This document shows positions 21,582 through 29,550 of a stretch of DNA of 64,000 nucleotides, piece after piece. Position 1 is the stretch's first letter; every line of letters begins with the position of its first letter. The translations under genes were made by a program, and so were the position numbers. Origin of the DNA: an uncultured Archangium sp. (GTDB taxonomy: Bacteria; Myxococcota; Myxococcia; Myxococcales; Myxococcaceae); the NCBI GenBank assembly GCA_903905455.1, contig CAIVGN010000197.1:1-64000 (forward strand), given 5' to 3'. The notes beneath the pieces are model-generated. The model saw only the letters and a program-made list of their open reading frames with translations, ran no database searches and had not been told where the DNA came from.

Positions 21582-22832
21582 GTGCGCATCGAGACGATCT
21601 GTACCGGCGACGAGCTCCTCACCGGGCTGACCAGCGACACCAACAGCCGCTTCTTCCAGGGCGCGCTGCTCGACCGCACGGGCTTGACGGTCAAGCGCAG
21701 CGTGGTGGTCGGAGACGATCGCGACGACATCATCGAGGCCCTCGACGCGGCCGCCGCGCGCTGCGACGTGGTGCTCGTGTCTGGCGGCCTCGGCCCCACC
21801 AGCGACGATCTCACCGCCGAGTGCGCCGCGAAGGCCGCGGGCGTGGCCCTGGTCCAGAGCGACCAGGCCCTGCGCCACCTGGTGGAGCGCTTTGAAGCCC
21901 GGGGCATCGTGCTCTCCGAGAACAACCGGCGCCAGGCGATGGTACCCGCGGGCAGCGAGGTGGTGCTCAACGCCGAGGGCAGCGCGCCGATGTTCATCCA
22001 GGTGCGCGGCCGCTGCACCCTGTTCTACGTGCCCGGCGTGCCCCGCGAGTACCGGCACCTCGTGGGCGCCTTCGTGGTGCCGCGCATCGCCGCGCTCAAG
22101 GGCGGCGCCGAGGTGCGCAAGCTGGCCCTGCTCAAGACCGTGGGCCTGCCCGAGTCACACCTCGACGAGCGCGTGCGCCCGCTCGCCGCGAAGTACCCCA
22201 ACGTGACCGTCGGCTTCCGCACCCACCCGCCGGAGAACCACCTCAAGCTGCTCGCCGTGGGCACCGACGAGGCCGCCACCAGCGCGCTGCTGGAGCAGGT
22301 GGTCGCCGAGGCGCGGGTGGTGCTGGGGGCCACGTGCTTCGGGCGCGACGACGAGACCCTCCCGGGCGTGGTGTTGAGGGCGCTCCGCCAGCGCCGCCAG
22401 TTCCTCGCGCTGGCCGAGAGCTGCACCGGGGGCCTCATCTGCGAGCTGCTCACCTCCGTGTCCGGGGCGAGCGACGCGTTCTACGGCGGCGCGTGCACCT
22501 ACCTCGAGGCCGCGAAGACGAAGTGGGCCGACGTGCCCGAAGGGTTGCTCGCCCAGTTCGGCGCCGTGTCGGCCGAGAGCGCCGAGGCCATGGCGCGGGG
22601 CGTGCGCGACGGCACCGGGGTGACCTGGGCCTTGAGCACCACCGGCTGGGCGGGCCCCGCGGGCGGTGACGCGCAGAACCCGGTAGGCACCGTCTACTTC
22701 GGCCTCGCCGGCCCCACGGGCGTGAAGGTCGAGAAGCACCGTTTTCATGGAGACCGGGAACGCGTGCGCAGCTTCGCCGCCTTCGCCGCGCTCGATCTCA
22801 TCCGCCGTAGCCTCGAAGGGAGTCCCTCGTGA
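21582..22832 (+). CDS. cinA: CinA-like protein (MoCF domain plus C-terminal amidase domain)
   Basis: GTG-started, 416 residues, matching full-length CinA. The N-terminal part is a molybdopterin-binding-like domain (TICTGDELLTG, SGGLGPTSDD), which in CinA proteins has ADP-ribose pyrophosphatase activity. The C-terminal 160 residues match the CinA amidase domain (AESCTGGLICELLTSVSG, STTGWAGPAGG, PVGTVYFGLAGP), which deamidates nicotinamide mononucleotide in pyridine-nucleotide recycling. Both catalytic motifs appear intact. Its stop overlaps the GTG start of the next gene (GTGA), so the two are probably transcribed together. Confidence 0.93.
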   Translation: MRIETICTGDELLTGLTSDTNSRFFQGALLDRTGLTVKRSVVVGDDRDDIIEALDAAAARCDVVLVSGGLGPTSDDLTAECAAKAAGVALVQSDQALRHLVERFEARGIVLSENNRRQAMVPAGSEVVLNAEGSAPMFIQVRGRCTLFYVPGVPREYRHLVGAFVVPRIAALKGGAEVRKLALLKTVGLPESHLDERVRPLAAKYPNVTVGFRTHPPENHLKLLAVGTDEAATSALLEQVVAEARVVLGATCFGRDDETLPGVVLRALRQRRQFLALAESCTGGLICELLTSVSGASDAFYGGACTYLEAAKTKWADVPEGLLAQFGAVSAESAEAMARGVRDGTGVTWALSTTGWAGPAGGDAQNPVGTVYFGLAGPTGVKVEKHRFHGDRERVRSFAAFAALDLIRRSLEGSPS

Positions 22833-24376
22833 GTCAGCAACTGTCCGCTCCCGCCAACGTGCCCGGTCCGCAAGCCGCGGGCAGCACCGCCCTGCGCCTG
22901 TGGGTGTCGGCGTACCGCGTGGAGCTCACGCTCTTCGCCATCACCTTCTTGGTGCTCGCGGCCTTCAGCGCCCAGCGCTTCTGGCGCCAGAGCGCCGCGC
23001 CGCACTTCGTGTACCAGGCCCGGGCGCTGCTCGAGGGCCGCTCCGACGTCGACCCCGAGGTGCTGCCCAACTTCGAAGACTGGGCCTGCGTGCGCGAGAC
23101 CGCGGGACAGAAGGTGCGCTGCACCGGCCAGCCCCTGCCGGGCGATCACTGGTACTCGTCCTTCCCCTGGTTCCCCGCGGTGGTGATGCTGCCCTTCGTG
23201 GCCATTCACGGCTACCAGTTCAACGACACCAGCTTCGGGGTGATCGTCGCGGCGCTCGCGGTGGCCTTCTTCTTCGCCCTCCTGCGCGTGCTCAAGGACG
23301 TCGAGGGCACGAAGACCACGGTGATGGACGACGCGCTGACCTCGCTGCTGCTCGCCTTCGGCACCCTGTTCTTCTACGCGTCGATCCGTGGCGAGGTGTG
23401 GTTCTCGGCCGAGGTGATGGGCGTGGCGCTCACCGCGCTCTACCTGCGCAACGCGGTCGGCGCGCGGCGGCCCCTGCTGGCCGGCCTCTTCTGGTCCATG
23501 GCCGTGGTCACGCGCACCCCGCTGTTCTTCACCGGCCTGTTCTTCGCGCTCGAGGTCCTGGCGCCCGAGAAGGGGCAACGCCTCGCGCAACTCAAGGTCT
23601 TCACCGCGCAGAAGAAGCAGGCCCTCGGGCGCTTCCTGGTGGGCGCCGCGCCGCTGGGAGTGCTCGCCGCGCTGTGGAACCTGACCCGCTTCGGCCACCT
23701 CACCGAGTTCGGTCACCGGTTCTTCTTCAACAACCGCGTCAACCACGACATCGACACCTTCGGGCTGTTCAACCTCCACTACCTGACCCGCAACCTCGAC
23801 GCGGCCTTCCTCAAGCTGCCGGTGGTCTCGGCGAACCCGGTGCTGCTCGGCTACGACGCCTGGGGTCTCTCGCTTTTCATCACCCTGCCCCTGCTCGCCC
23901 TGTGCTTCGTGCCCGCAGCCCAGCCCAAGCGCGCGCTGCAGTTGGTCGGCGCGATGGTGGCGGTGCTGGTGGGCTCGGTGCTCTTTCCCCCCGTGGCCCC
24001 TCCCCCCGGCGAGCCGCCCATCGGCTGGCGCCCCGTGGCGCTGTGGCTGATCCTCGCGCTGGTGCTCGCGTTCTTCGCGTGGACCGCCTGGCAGTGGGTC
24101 AGCTCGAAGGACTCACCGCGGCTGCTGGTGCCCACGCTGCTCACGCTGCTGGCGTGCATGCTCCCGGGCCTCGCGTACCAGAACACCGGCTACGCCCAGT
24201 TCGGGTTCCGCTTCAGCATCGACTACTCGGTGTACCTGCTGATGCTCGTCCCGCTCGCGGGCTGGAGCTGGAAGAAGCCGCTGCCCATGACCCTCGCGCT
24301 GCTGTCCATCGCCGCAAACTTCTGGGGCGCGGTGGGCTTCCGCGGGTACACCGAGCTCGTGCGAAACTGGCAGTGA
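22829..24376 (+). CDS. Polytopic membrane protein, GT-C glycosyltransferase-like
   Basis: This 515-residue protein has about ten hydrophobic segments. Between the first and second there is a large extracytoplasmic loop (about 50-105) with two Cys and an acidic patch (DVDPEVLPNFEDW), and motif WYSSFPWFPAVVMLPF just before the next helix. This topology is that of GT-C (PMT/ArnT-like) lipid-linked sugar transferases, where a loop Asp or Glu is catalytic. A second protein with the same plan is encoded at 47020-48624. The sugar donor and acceptor cannot be told. The start overlaps the cinA stop by GTGA. Confidence 0.6.
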   Translation: MSQQLSAPANVPGPQAAGSTALRLWVSAYRVELTLFAITFLVLAAFSAQRFWRQSAAPHFVYQARALLEGRSDVDPEVLPNFEDWACVRETAGQKVRCTGQPLPGDHWYSSFPWFPAVVMLPFVAIHGYQFNDTSFGVIVAALAVAFFFALLRVLKDVEGTKTTVMDDALTSLLLAFGTLFFYASIRGEVWFSAEVMGVALTALYLRNAVGARRPLLAGLFWSMAVVTRTPLFFTGLFFALEVLAPEKGQRLAQLKVFTAQKKQALGRFLVGAAPLGVLAALWNLTRFGHLTEFGHRFFFNNRVNHDIDTFGLFNLHYLTRNLDAAFLKLPVVSANPVLLGYDAWGLSLFITLPLLALCFVPAAQPKRALQLVGAMVAVLVGSVLFPPVAPPPGEPPIGWRPVALWLILALVLAFFAWTAWQWVSSKDSPRLLVPTLLTLLACMLPGLAYQNTGYAQFGFRFSIDYSVYLLMLVPLAGWSWKKPLPMTLALLSIAANFWGAVGFRGYTELVRNWQ

Positions 24377-24377
24377 G

Positions 24378-25499
24378 ATGACCGACGTCACGCGCTGGCA
24401 CACCCGGGAAGACAGTGGCCTGCGCATCGACCGCCAGGGGCGCTGGTGGCACGACGACGCCCCCGTCGAGCACCCGAACATCATCGAGGCCTTCAACCGC
24501 GGCGTGCGGGCGATGGAAGACGGCCGCGTGCAGCTCCACTTCGGCGGTGACTGGTGCTTCGTGCAGGTCGAAGACTGCGCCTTCACCGTGCTCGCCGTGG
24601 ACGCCTCGGAAGACGAGCGCCTCTCGGTGCGCCTGTCGGATCGCACGGCCGAGTGGCTCGCGACGGACAGCCTGGCCCTCGATGACGAAGGAGTTCTCGT
24701 GACACGTGTGAAGAACGGGCTGGCCCGCGCGCGGTTCTCGAGAGAGGCCCAGTTTCAGCTCGCCGAGCACCTCGAAGAACGCGAAGGGGGCATGGTGCTG
24801 AAGGTCGGCTCGAGGAGCTGGCCCACCTCGCTCGTACTCGTCCTCGCGCTGCTGGTGATGGTGCTGGGCTCGGCCTGCGGGAGAACCGAACCGGTGCGCG
24901 GCCTCATCGAAAAGTGGCCGGCGGGCTTCGTCACCGACGCGGGGGTCACCACCACCACGAGGGACGGCGGGGAGATCATCTCCGGGCCCTGCGAAGGCTT
25001 CGCCCAGACGTGCCCCCAGGGCTTCCACTGCGAGTCGGGGGACTGCGTGCTCAACGGTGGCAACGCCGACCTGCAGGTGACCTTGCAGTGGCAGAACACG
25101 CCGCGCACCCCGGAAGACATCGACCTGCACCTGGTCGAGCCCGCCGGCGTCGGGTCGTGCGAGATCTACTACGGCAGCGGGGGCCTCTTCTCGTGCCGCC
25201 CGGTGGGCCAGTTGGACCTCGACGCCAACGTCAGCTGCTTCGACACCTCGACGACAGCGGGCCTCGCCTTCGACACCGAGAACATCATCTACCCCGCCGG
25301 GAGCTCCGCGCCGAAGGGCCACTACATCGTGCGCGTCGACTACTTCCAGGAATGCGGGGGCAACATCGACGTGCCCTTCGTGGTGACCGTGCGCAAGGGC
25401 ACGAGCCTCACCCGGCGCACGGGGGTGTTCCACCCGGGCGAGTCCGACTCCGGGGCCGAAGGATCCGGCATCACCATGATCGAGTTCGACATGCCCTGA
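24378..25499 (+). CDS. DUF1285 domain fused in frame to a YfaP/DUF2135-like lipoprotein
   Basis: One unbroken 373-codon frame encodes two parts. Residues 1-155 match the cytoplasmic DUF1285 family (start LRIDRQGRWWHDDAPVEHP, end FQLAEHLEEREGG...SRSWP). Residues 139-167 then form a complete lipoprotein signal: Met139, basic n-region, the hydrophobic stretch LVLVLALLVMVLG and Cys167 (GSAC). The rest has a Cys-rich segment (CEGFAQTCPQGFHCESGDC) and a domain with LQVTLQWQNTPRTPEDIDLH, as in YfaP/DUF2135-like surface proteins. An ATG at 24792 has GAAGGGGG just before it, so the lipoprotein may be made separately. A real fusion, a lost stop codon or a sequencing error are the alternatives. Confidence 0.7.
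   Translation: MTDVTRWHTREDSGLRIDRQGRWWHDDAPVEHPNIIEAFNRGVRAMEDGRVQLHFGGDWCFVQVEDCAFTVLAVDASEDERLSVRLSDRTAEWLATDSLALDDEGVLVTRVKNGLARARFSREAQFQLAEHLEEREGGMVLKVGSRSWPTSLVLVLALLVMVLGSACGRTEPVRGLIEKWPAGFVTDAGVTTTTRDGGEIISGPCEGFAQTCPQGFHCESGDCVLNGGNADLQVTLQWQNTPRTPEDIDLHLVEPAGVGSCEIYYGSGGLFSCRPVGQLDLDANVSCFDTSTTAGLAFDTENIIYPAGSSAPKGHYIVRVDYFQECGGNIDVPFVVTVRKGTSLTRRTGVFHPGESDSGAEGSGITMIEFDMP
24792..25499 (+). CDS. Candidate internal-start lipoprotein nested in the DUF1285 frame
   Basis: ATG 24792 lies 4-5 bases after GAAGGGGG and is in the same frame as the longer product. It would give 235 residues beginning MVLKVGSRSWPTS, then a 13-residue hydrophobic core and a lipobox-like LGSAC with Cys at 29. 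This is a normal lipoprotein signal length, whereas a signal buried at residue 139 of the long form would be hard to export. The mature part shows six Cys near its start and the DUF2135-like LQWQNTPRTPEDIDLHLVEP segment, suggesting an outer-surface lipoprotein. It is inferred from sequence only. Confidence 0.5.
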   Translation: MVLKVGSRSWPTSLVLVLALLVMVLGSACGRTEPVRGLIEKWPAGFVTDAGVTTTTRDGGEIISGPCEGFAQTCPQGFHCESGDCVLNGGNADLQVTLQWQNTPRTPEDIDLHLVEPAGVGSCEIYYGSGGLFSCRPVGQLDLDANVSCFDTSTTAGLAFDTENIIYPAGSSAPKGHYIVRVDYFQECGGNIDVPFVVTVRKGTSLTRRTGVFHPGESDSGAEGSGITMIEFDMP

Positions 25500-25598: not shown

Positions 25599-26720
25599 GT
25601 GCTTTCGCTCGTCGTCTTGGCCGTGCTCGCTGCTGATGCTGGGTTCCTCGAGGACGACGCGGGCGTGGTCGATGCGGGCATCCCCGCGCAGGTGCTCAAC
25701 GCCAGGCCCCTCAACCGCAAGGTGAACGACGAGCGCGTGGACCGCGTGCTCCAGTCGTTGAGCACCCGCGAGCGGGCCGGCCAGTTGATCCTCGCCTACC
25801 CGCAGATCGACCGCCTCAAGCCCGTCGAGGTGGGCGGCATCCTCTTCGTGGGCAACTCGCTGAAGAACGTCGTCAAGGCGAAGGAGAAGATCGACGCCTC
25901 GCGCGTCAGGGCCAAGGTGCCGCCCTTCGTGGCCGTGGACATGGAAGGCGGGCCCTCCAACCGCATGAAGAGCGTGCGCTCGCTCAAGGCACTGCCCTCG
26001 GCGCACGAGATGGCGAAGCTCGAAGACGCCGACGTGCGGCGCTGGGGGCGCAAGGTGGGCGAGGCGATGAAGTCTGTCGGGCTCAACCTGAACCTGGCGC
26101 CGGTGCTCGACGTCGCGCCCTCGGGCCACATGGAGCGCAACGGGCGCAGCTTCAGCGGAGAGCAGGACGTGGTGGTCCAGAAGGCGATGGCCTATTCGCG
26201 CGGGCTCCTCGAGGCCGGCGTGGTGCCCATCGGGAAACACTTCCCCGGCTATGGCGACACCGACGGAGACAGCGACCACGCCCTCGTCACCTGCGACTGG
26301 ACGAAGGAGCGCGTCTACGCCGAGGCCGATGCCTTCGTGAAGGCCCGCGACGCCCTGGGCGGGGTGATGCTGGCGAACGTGGTCTACGCCTCGGTCGACG
26401 ACCGGCCCGCGATCCTGAGCCCGAAGCTCGTGGCCCGGGTGCACGAGCACGACTGGCTCGCGGTGACCGATGACGTCTCCATCGCGCTCTTGGCCGACGC
26501 CGTGGGAGGCACCGGGGAGGACGTGCTGGTGCAGGCCTTCCGCGCGGGCAACGATCTCATCCTCACCACCGCCCCGCCCGACTGGAACAAGGGCCTCGAC
26601 TACATCGGCATCCTCACCCGCCTCGCCGACTCCGACGCGAGCGCGAAGAAGCAACTGGAAGAGAGCTGCCGCCGGGTGCTCCGCCTCAAAGACCGCATGG
26701 GTCTTCTCGACGCGCTCTGA
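25599..26720 (+). CDS. nagZ: Glycoside hydrolase family 3 beta-N-acetylglucosaminidase (NagZ-like)
   Basis: Translation from GTG 25599 gives 373 residues with a short signal peptide (LSLVVLAVLAADAG). The GH3 core has VAVDMEGGPSNRMK, the NagZ-type loop KHFPGYGDTDGDSDH carrying the acid/base residues, and the catalytic Asp region AVTDDVSIALLAD. NagZ removes GlcNAc from 1,6-anhydromuramyl peptides in peptidoglycan recycling; most are cytoplasmic, so the export signal suggests action outside the cytoplasm. The 3' end lies in the left copy of a 103-bp direct repeat, of which the last 53 coding bases recur at 31241-31293. Confidence 0.87.
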   Translation: MLSLVVLAVLAADAGFLEDDAGVVDAGIPAQVLNARPLNRKVNDERVDRVLQSLSTRERAGQLILAYPQIDRLKPVEVGGILFVGNSLKNVVKAKEKIDASRVRAKVPPFVAVDMEGGPSNRMKSVRSLKALPSAHEMAKLEDADVRRWGRKVGEAMKSVGLNLNLAPVLDVAPSGHMERNGRSFSGEQDVVVQKAMAYSRGLLEAGVVPIGKHFPGYGDTDGDSDHALVTCDWTKERVYAEADAFVKARDALGGVMLANVVYASVDDRPAILSPKLVARVHEHDWLAVTDDVSIALLADAVGGTGEDVLVQAFRAGNDLILTTAPPDWNKGLDYIGILTRLADSDASAKKQLEESCRRVLRLKDRMGLLDAL

Positions 26721-27883: not shown

Positions 27884-28063
27884 TCCAATTGTCGCTGAGC
27901 ACACCGTGGGCGTTGCGGTGATGTTGACCAGCATCGCGGGCTTCACGCGCCGACTGTTGGGAACCCGCGAGGCGACGCCACGGCTCGAGCGCTCGTTGCG
28001 CGTCATCTCCTGGTTCAGCGCCGGCTCGGGCCTGCTCGCCCGCGCCAGCCTGACGGCGCGCGA
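27884..28063 (+). pseudogene. Possible relic of a small membrane protein
   Basis: On the plus strand a frame reads VGVAVMLTSIAGFTRRLL, then PRLERSLRVISWFSAGSG and LLARASLT. It has two hydrophobic stretches and natural-looking composition but no start codon or clear end, and its 3' part overlaps the tail of the convergent VanY-like gene. It may be the tail of a lost membrane protein gene, or chance. Confidence 0.22.
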
Positions 28064-29550
28064 CGGCGCCGAGCCCAGAGCAAGAGGCCCAGGAGCCACA
28101 CGCCTGGCGCCGCGCTGCAGCCCCCGCGGACCAGCTCGAGCCGGGTGGGGGCCGCTTCGACGGGGGCCGGCGGTAAGACGTTCGGGTCCACCTCGGTGGG
28201 CCCCGAGTCCCCGGGAAGGACGGGCAGGCCACCATCGTCCGGCGCGGGCATCGGAGCGCCCGCGTCGGGTGTCGCGACCACGGTGCCGGTCTGGGTCACG
28301 CACCGGCCCATGGAGCAGCCCGCGTCGACGTTGCCGCAGTCGAGCGCCTGGCGCGCAGTGCAGCCCGTGCCCTCGCACCAGCCGCCGCGGCACACCTCGT
28401 CGACGCAGCCGCAGCCCTGCGCCGCGCAGTCCGTCGTCTGCTTCCCCGTGCAGCCGGACCCGGGGCAGGACCCGCCGCTGCAGGTGGCGTCGACGCTGTG
28501 ACACCCGAGGCCCCCGCAGTCGGTTGCGTTGCGCGCGGTGCTGCCGCTGCCGCTGCACGCGTTGCCGCCGCTGCAGGCGTGATCCACGCAGCCGCAACCC
28601 TGGGCCGTGCAGTCGGTGGTTTCCTTCGCGGTGCAGCCGTTCCCCGTGCCGAAACCGCCGGCGCACTGGTGATCGACACAGTTCACGCCGAACGCCGCGC
28701 AGTCGTGCGTCTCGCGCCAGGTGCAGCCCGTGCCCGCGCACGCCACGCCGCCGTTGCACTGGTGGTCGACGCAGCCGCAGCCGACGCTGCCGCAGTCGAG
28801 CGTCTCCTTCGCGGTGCATCCCGAGCCGGGCGCGGTCCCTCCGGCGCAGGCGCCATCGGCACAGCCCGCGCCGAAGGCCCCGCAGTCCGCCGCGTGTTGG
28901 GCGCTGCACCCCGTTCCCGGGCAGAAGATGCCGTTGCACTGGTGATCCACGCAGCCGCAGCCGTACTGGCCGCAGCCCGCGGCCTCCGCGCTCGTGCAGT
29001 GGTCCGCCGTGGAGCCGCACGGGCCGCCGCCGGGACCGCCGCCCCACCATTCCCAGTGCCACGCCTCGCTGGGGACGGTGCGGCTGAATCCGAACGCGGC
29101 GCCGTGGGCGCTGAGCCAGTTGAGGACGCCGGGCGCGCTGGTGTTGAGGTCGAGCGCGTGGCCGCTCTGGTGGTTGCTGTAGCCGGGCTGCGCCGCGAGG
29201 TTGCAGCTGTTGCAGCTGCAGTTGATGTAGCAGCCGTAGAGGTGCTGCTGCTCCGCCATGGTGCGGAAGCCGGAGACCACCGCGATGCTGACCCCATCGT
29301 TCGCCGCGGCCTGCTGCATCACGGCGTAGGCATTGGCGGTGTCGCGCTCGGCCGGCTTGCCATCGGCGCTGACCACGGTGATCGCGAAGGCTGCGCCGCT
29401 GCGGTAGCCCGTGTCCTGCCGCTCGGCGCAGGTGACGAGCCCCTGCTCGCTGGAGCTGAAGAACTGCAGGGGTTCGGCCTCGTCAGCCTCGCGGTCGATC
29501 AGAGGCCCGCAGCCGATCAGCGCCAGCACGAGGGGAAGGAAGGTCCGCAC
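28015..29550 (-). CDS. VanY-type D-Ala-D-Ala carboxypeptidase with Cys-rich repeats and MYXO-CTERM tail
   Basis: GTG-started, 511 residues. The signal peptide ends in ALIGC, a lipobox (Cys14). Residues about 40-170 are an M15B peptidase: SGFRTMAEQQHLYG, zinc motif SNHQSGHALDLN and EAWHWEW. Such enzymes remove the last D-Ala of peptidoglycan stems. Next come eight Cys-rich repeats of about 30 residues (GSGCTAKETLDCGSVGCGC type), which should form disulfide-linked modules. A Pro/Asp-rich linker leads to GGCSAAPGVWLLGLLLWARR RR-like end: Cys, hydrophobic helix, Arg cluster, the MYXO-CTERM sorting signal. A lipobox together with MYXO-CTERM is odd. It may act at the cell surface. Confidence 0.85.
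   Translation of the reverse strand: MRTFLPLVLALIGCGPLIDREADEAEPLQFFSSSEQGLVTCAERQDTGYRSGAAFAITVVSADGKPAERDTANAYAVMQQAAANDGVSIAVVSGFRTMAEQQHLYGCYINCSCNSCNLAAQPGYSNHQSGHALDLNTSAPGVLNWLSAHGAAFGFSRTVPSEAWHWEWWGGGPGGGPCGSTADHCTSAEAAGCGQYGCGCVDHQCNGIFCPGTGCSAQHAADCGAFGAGCADGACAGGTAPGSGCTAKETLDCGSVGCGCVDHQCNGGVACAGTGCTWRETHDCAAFGVNCVDHQCAGGFGTGNGCTAKETTDCTAQGCGCVDHACSGGNACSGSGSTARNATDCGGLGCHSVDATCSGGSCPGSGCTGKQTTDCAAQGCGCVDEVCRGGWCEGTGCTARQALDCGNVDAGCSMGRCVTQTGTVVATPDAGAPMPAPDDGGLPVLPGDSGPTEVDPNVLPPAPVEAAPTRLELVRGGCSAAPGVWLLGLLLWARRRRAPSGWRGRAGPSRR
28320..29025 (-). repeat. Eight tandem ~90-bp repeats encoding Cys-rich modules
   Basis: Eight successive units of about 30 residues occur within the VanY-like gene, each with the pattern G-x-G-C-T-x-[KR]-x-T-x-D-C-x(4)-G-C-x-C-V-D-x-x-C-x-G-G. 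Some units lack a cysteine pair (unit 6 has Ser for the first Cys). The DNA copies are diverged but aligned in frame. Confidence 0.8.

Follow-up and report, generated by a model that had tools for sequence, protein, structure and literature searches.

A DUF1285 domain and a lipoprotein are encoded by one continuous open reading frame (24378..25499, +; 373 aa) in the 64,000-nucleotide stretch from an uncultured myxobacterium analysed here, referred to as the window. The frame comprises the DUF1285 domain, a signal peptide or transmembrane segment, and a lipoprotein domain. The join is real in the assembly and is unique to one genome among those examined. Judged from its sequence, it appears to be an unusual but small-scale gene fusion. 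The leading reading, to which we give about even odds, is that a lineage-specific relocation placed the lipoprotein gene between the genes for DUF1285 and a GH3 glycosidase, giving a fusion that also carries an internally started lipoprotein.

The joined frame and its DUF1285 domain

The frame runs from ATG24378 to TGA25499 through 373 codons with no stop. Third-position G+C was 0.80-0.97 along the whole ORF, indicating that the DUF1285 and lipoprotein halves are both coding in the joined frame. The original prediction of a single frame linking the two was thus confirmed. The upstream gene (22829..24376, +), a conserved neighbour of DUF1285 in relatives, encodes a 515-aa membrane protein, and its stop is 1 nt before ATG24378. 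The genome is represented by a single metagenome-type assembly (8.6 Mb, 251 contigs). It contained no second copy of either half, only lipoprotein paralogs (36-43%).

The DUF1285 domain occupies residues 1-153 (24378..24836, +) and is complete to its last beta-hairpin according to Pfam, alignment, AlphaFold and Foldseek. Residues 5-66 matched DUF1285_N (PF06938) at an E value of 1.7e-5 when the whole ORF was searched and 3.1e-6 when only its first 140 residues were used; the profile score was 25-27 bits against a gathering cut-off of 29.3, and the stand-alone homologs tested were also below this cut-off. When the joined protein was aligned with 11 relatives, DUF1285 homology extended to ~residue 152. 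The AlphaFold model of residues 1-155 (pLDDT 92) ended in strands 138-143 and 146-153, forming a hairpin (138-153). Its best PDB matches in Foldseek were 2re3 (E 9e-8) and 2ra9 (E 2e-6), followed by a match at E 0.08. Both structures are DUF1285 crystal structures, and the model has the DUF1285 fold. These findings bear out the presence of a whole DUF1285 domain in the long frame. They also place Met139 inside the domain, in strand 138-143, with homology and model continuing to ~153; the earlier boundary, which had DUF1285 ending before Met139, was ~14 residues early.

The protein resembles the DUF1285 family in its fold and in the sub-threshold profile match over the first 66 residues, and its DUF1285 part is within the 150-250 residues given for family members (PMC2954208). 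It differs by the added C-terminal signal or transmembrane segment and lipoprotein domain. A single fusion in the family, to a SixA-like domain in Marinobacter, was reported in 2010, and a nucleotide-type ligand and signalling role were suggested for DUF1285 (PMC2954208). As a side observation, a DUF1285 protein with 59% identity to that of the myxobacterium is encoded on BNCN01000002.1, a contig of 969 kb whose title is Comamonas sp. KCTC 72670. Such identity suggests that the record is mislabelled or mixed.

Of 96 family genomes, 91 matched at least one of the two halves, and the DUF1285 half was present in ~86 besides this one; a match over residues 1-373 was found only here. A 93-aa query spanning the junction gave no other match into the lipoprotein part among 147 class genomes. 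The DUF1285 frame ended 4-34 residues past the match end at the other loci that were read, compared with 223 residues here. At 45 loci from named genomes it ended 2-23 residues past residue 150, and none of these had the joined frame. Across the remaining genomes examined from the family and the order, the DUF1285 stop was no more than ~30 residues away from position 150. The suspected loss of this stop thus holds in the assembly: the stop is present in relatives and absent here. As to whether homologs are separate or joined, relatives have separate genes and only this genome has the joined frame.

Signal peptide, junction and candidate internal starts

The hydrophobic segment TSLVLVLALLVMVLGSACG (residues 150-168; 24825..24881, +) includes a lipobox-like LGSAC with Cys167. 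It is the most hydrophobic 19-residue stretch of the joined ORF (hydropathy maximum 2.34), aligns with LLVLLAAC/LLLVLAAC of the stand-alone orthologs, and is preceded by the positively charged residues Lys142 and Arg146. Read by eye, MVLKVGSRSWPTSLVLVLALLVMVLGSAC has a positive n-region, a hydrophobic region and a lipobox with Cys. The lipobox is atypical in having Gly rather than Leu at -3 (GSAC here, LAAC in the stand-alone lipoproteins). The proposal of a complete lipoprotein signal with an internal start upstream therefore holds at the sequence level. A literature search on internal lipoprotein signals returned nothing directly relevant.

The mature lipoprotein part (Cys167-373; 24876..25499, +) belongs to a weakly DUF2135-like family. 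It is 58-60% identical to stand-alone orthologs in two genomes of the genus, G003 and G004. Like the stand-alone myxobacterial lipoproteins (G003, G004 and G036), it has the shared cysteines and a mature part that opens with CG+R/K. It differs from them in having no start or n-region of its own, its signal peptide beginning inside DUF1285. A Pfam search of the joined protein gave no match to DUF2135 (PF09906); the G004 ortholog scored 18.9 bits, below the gathering score of 22. The structure model of the lipoprotein part was poor (pLDDT 61), and this low-confidence model had no PDB match at E <= 0.001.

The junction is between ...GSRSWPTSL and VLVLALLVMVLGSACGRTEP (VLVLALL...), at ~residue 152/153, inside the signal peptide and within the modelled DUF1285 fold. 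At the corresponding position, DUF1285 of G002 reads ...GEQRWPTSLAASALG followed by a stop. Residues 138-153 (24789..24836, +), delimited by AlphaFold strands 138-143 and 146-153 and by sequence, probably have a dual use: in DUF1285 they form the final hairpin, and a short product would use them as the n-region and the beginning of the h-region of its signal peptide.

Two candidate internal starts, ATG24792 (Met139) and GTG24795 (Val140) (24792..24797, +), are the last ATG/GTG codons before the hydrophobic segment. Later ATG/GTG codons before Cys167 (24855, 24858 and 24861) are too near Cys167 to leave a signal peptide. Because DUF1285 homology extends to ~152, a free lipoprotein would have to start inside DUF1285. 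A Shine-Dalgarno-like GAAGGGGG (24783..24790, +) doubles as Glu-Gly-Gly codons of DUF1285; similar codons are also present in DUF1285 of G004, which has no gene behind them. The calculated duplex of GAAGGGGG with the anti-Shine-Dalgarno sequence was -10.1 kcal/mol at 0-1 nt from ATG24792 and -9.5 kcal/mol at 4 nt from GTG24795. Among the 136 internal ATG/GTG codons, 3 besides GTG24795 attained its Shine-Dalgarno score. The strong GAAGGGGG site originally assigned to ATG24792 is thus present within the frame, but its 1-nt spacing weakens ATG24792 as a strong start, and the 4-nt spacing serves GTG24795. The short lipoprotein would therefore probably start at GTG24795 in preference to ATG24792.

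We rejected a one-base frameshift or the loss of a stop near 24780-24830 as the only cause of the join, because a single unbroken frame carries both the DUF1285 homology and the hydrophobic segment, and starts further along would leave the lipoprotein without a signal peptide. A missing base in that region, named earlier as the finding that would overturn the join, would not restore an ordinary gene pair.

Gene order and origin of the join

The order pssA-cinA-515-aa protein-DUF1285-GH3 is found in G003, G004 and G005, and partially in G001 and G002. The GH3 glycosidase gene (25599..26720, +; identified by Pfam and synteny) starts at GTG25599 by homology. It is directly downstream of DUF1285 with nothing between in G001, G004 and G005; in this genome the lipoprotein sits between the two. 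An element upstream of GH3 is kept behind the lipoprotein (GCTGCTACATTG here, GCTGCTAGATTG in G003, ACTGCTAGGTTG in G005 and GCTGGTAGGTTG in G004).

In G003 and G004, the lipoprotein locus is flanked on one side by tmk and a divergent membrane-protein gene and on the other by alpha/beta-hydrolase and Ser/Thr kinase genes. The orthologs at that locus each have a short signal peptide of their own (MIRGLPFLLLVLAAC and MRGPWPLLVLLAAC). In the genome studied here, ~0.6 kb separates tmk from the kinase gene. The gap holds an unrelated ORF and no lipoprotein, and the genome has no close counterparts of the flanking membrane-protein and hydrolase genes. Because the two genes are at separate loci in relatives, the DUF1285 stop appears to have been lost together with the move of the lipoprotein gene. 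The lipoprotein is missing from G001 and G005, so that its original locus is not certain and the move can be given only a presumed direction.

The DUF1285-GH3 gap evidently received genes more than once, as G003 has a different gene there (L034, 6919-7490). This gene has an apparent signal sequence and starts at a GTGA over the DUF1285 stop; a Pfam search with it gave no match. In G006, a near-exact second copy of the DUF1285 gene 3' end lies just after position 6685 of L045 and represents a small tandem duplication.

In the relocation reading, the join would have cost DUF1285 a few C-terminal residues together with its stop, and the lipoprotein its own start and n-region, with the frame kept. 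The lipoprotein would now be started within DUF1285 at GTG24795, or at ATG24792, and the codons of the last DUF1285 hairpin would supply its positively charged n-region. Several points stand against this reading: the single 251-contig assembly, the Gly at -3, the uncertain original locus, the pLDDT of 61 for the lipoprotein part, and the fact that the GAAGGGGG bases may simply be Glu-Gly-Gly codons of DUF1285.

The fact that the join was seen in one genome only, exactly where DUF1285 of relatives ends, is also what would be expected if the contig lacked a short stretch containing both the stop of DUF1285 and the genuine start of the lipoprotein. Such an assembly or sequence artefact is fairly unlikely. 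Both flanks are syntenic with relatives, the GH3 upstream element included, which means that two mis-joins would be required to produce a large chimera. Across the join, the reading frame is maintained and the hydrophobic segment is complete, and no single-base error could be reversed to restore two ordinary genes. It is very unlikely that the locus is a decaying remnant in which relocation left one or both halves non-functional. The event is lineage-specific and the lipoprotein has lost its own start, as decay would predict; however, the frame has no stops or frameshifts, third-position G+C is high throughout, and the conserved residues of both families are retained. Conservation of DUF1285 relative to its neighbours is about the same here as in relatives, which likewise speaks against decay but does not show when the fusion arose.

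We consider it unlikely that the locus makes the long form only, as a true fusion tethering DUF1285 to the inner membrane in type II (N-in) orientation with no functional internal start. The continuous frame, the hydrophobic segment with upstream Lys142 and Arg146, and the position of the long ATG 1 nt after the upstream stop are consistent with such a protein. On the other hand, there is no linker, the last DUF1285 strand (146-153) overlapping the hydrophobic segment (150-168); the lipobox region is retained; and a usable, well-spaced internal start is present.

Possible products and their meaning

If the relocation reading is extended to expression, one frame may give two products, a free lipoprotein and a DUF1285 fusion tethered to the inner membrane, with the last-hairpin codons used twice; we put this forward tentatively. 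The short product would follow the normal lipoprotein route through Lgt and LspA. The long form would arise by translation from ATG24378 coupled to that of the upstream gene; its DUF1285 part would stay cytoplasmic, residues 151-165 would serve as signal anchor, and the lipoprotein domain would lie on the far side of the inner membrane. A hydrophobic segment that follows a cytoplasmic domain need not in itself be an obstacle, since such segments can work as type II signal anchors.

Salmonella has documented cases of in-frame alternative starts whose products end up in different locations (PMC11005335). The present locus resembles such genes within genes and alternative N-terminal proteoforms in having one frame with two plausible starts, whose predicted products would reach different compartments. 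It differs in that its short form would gain an export signal, whereas most examples in PMC11005335 lose one. If expressed as proposed, the locus would be a natural, apparently lineage-specific case in which gene rearrangement led to an export signal being rebuilt out of codons for a cytoplasmic domain unrelated to it, and would offer a possible membrane tether for a DUF1285 protein. Unless both products exist, it does not bear on any wider question, and the locus would be ordinary if the join were an assembly deletion.

Elsewhere in the window, a gene on the reverse strand (28015-29550, -) encodes a VanY-type D-Ala-D-Ala carboxypeptidase with a lipobox-like start and a long cysteine-rich repeat region. 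Its C-terminus has a hydrophobic stretch followed by arginines, resembling a surface-sorting tail.
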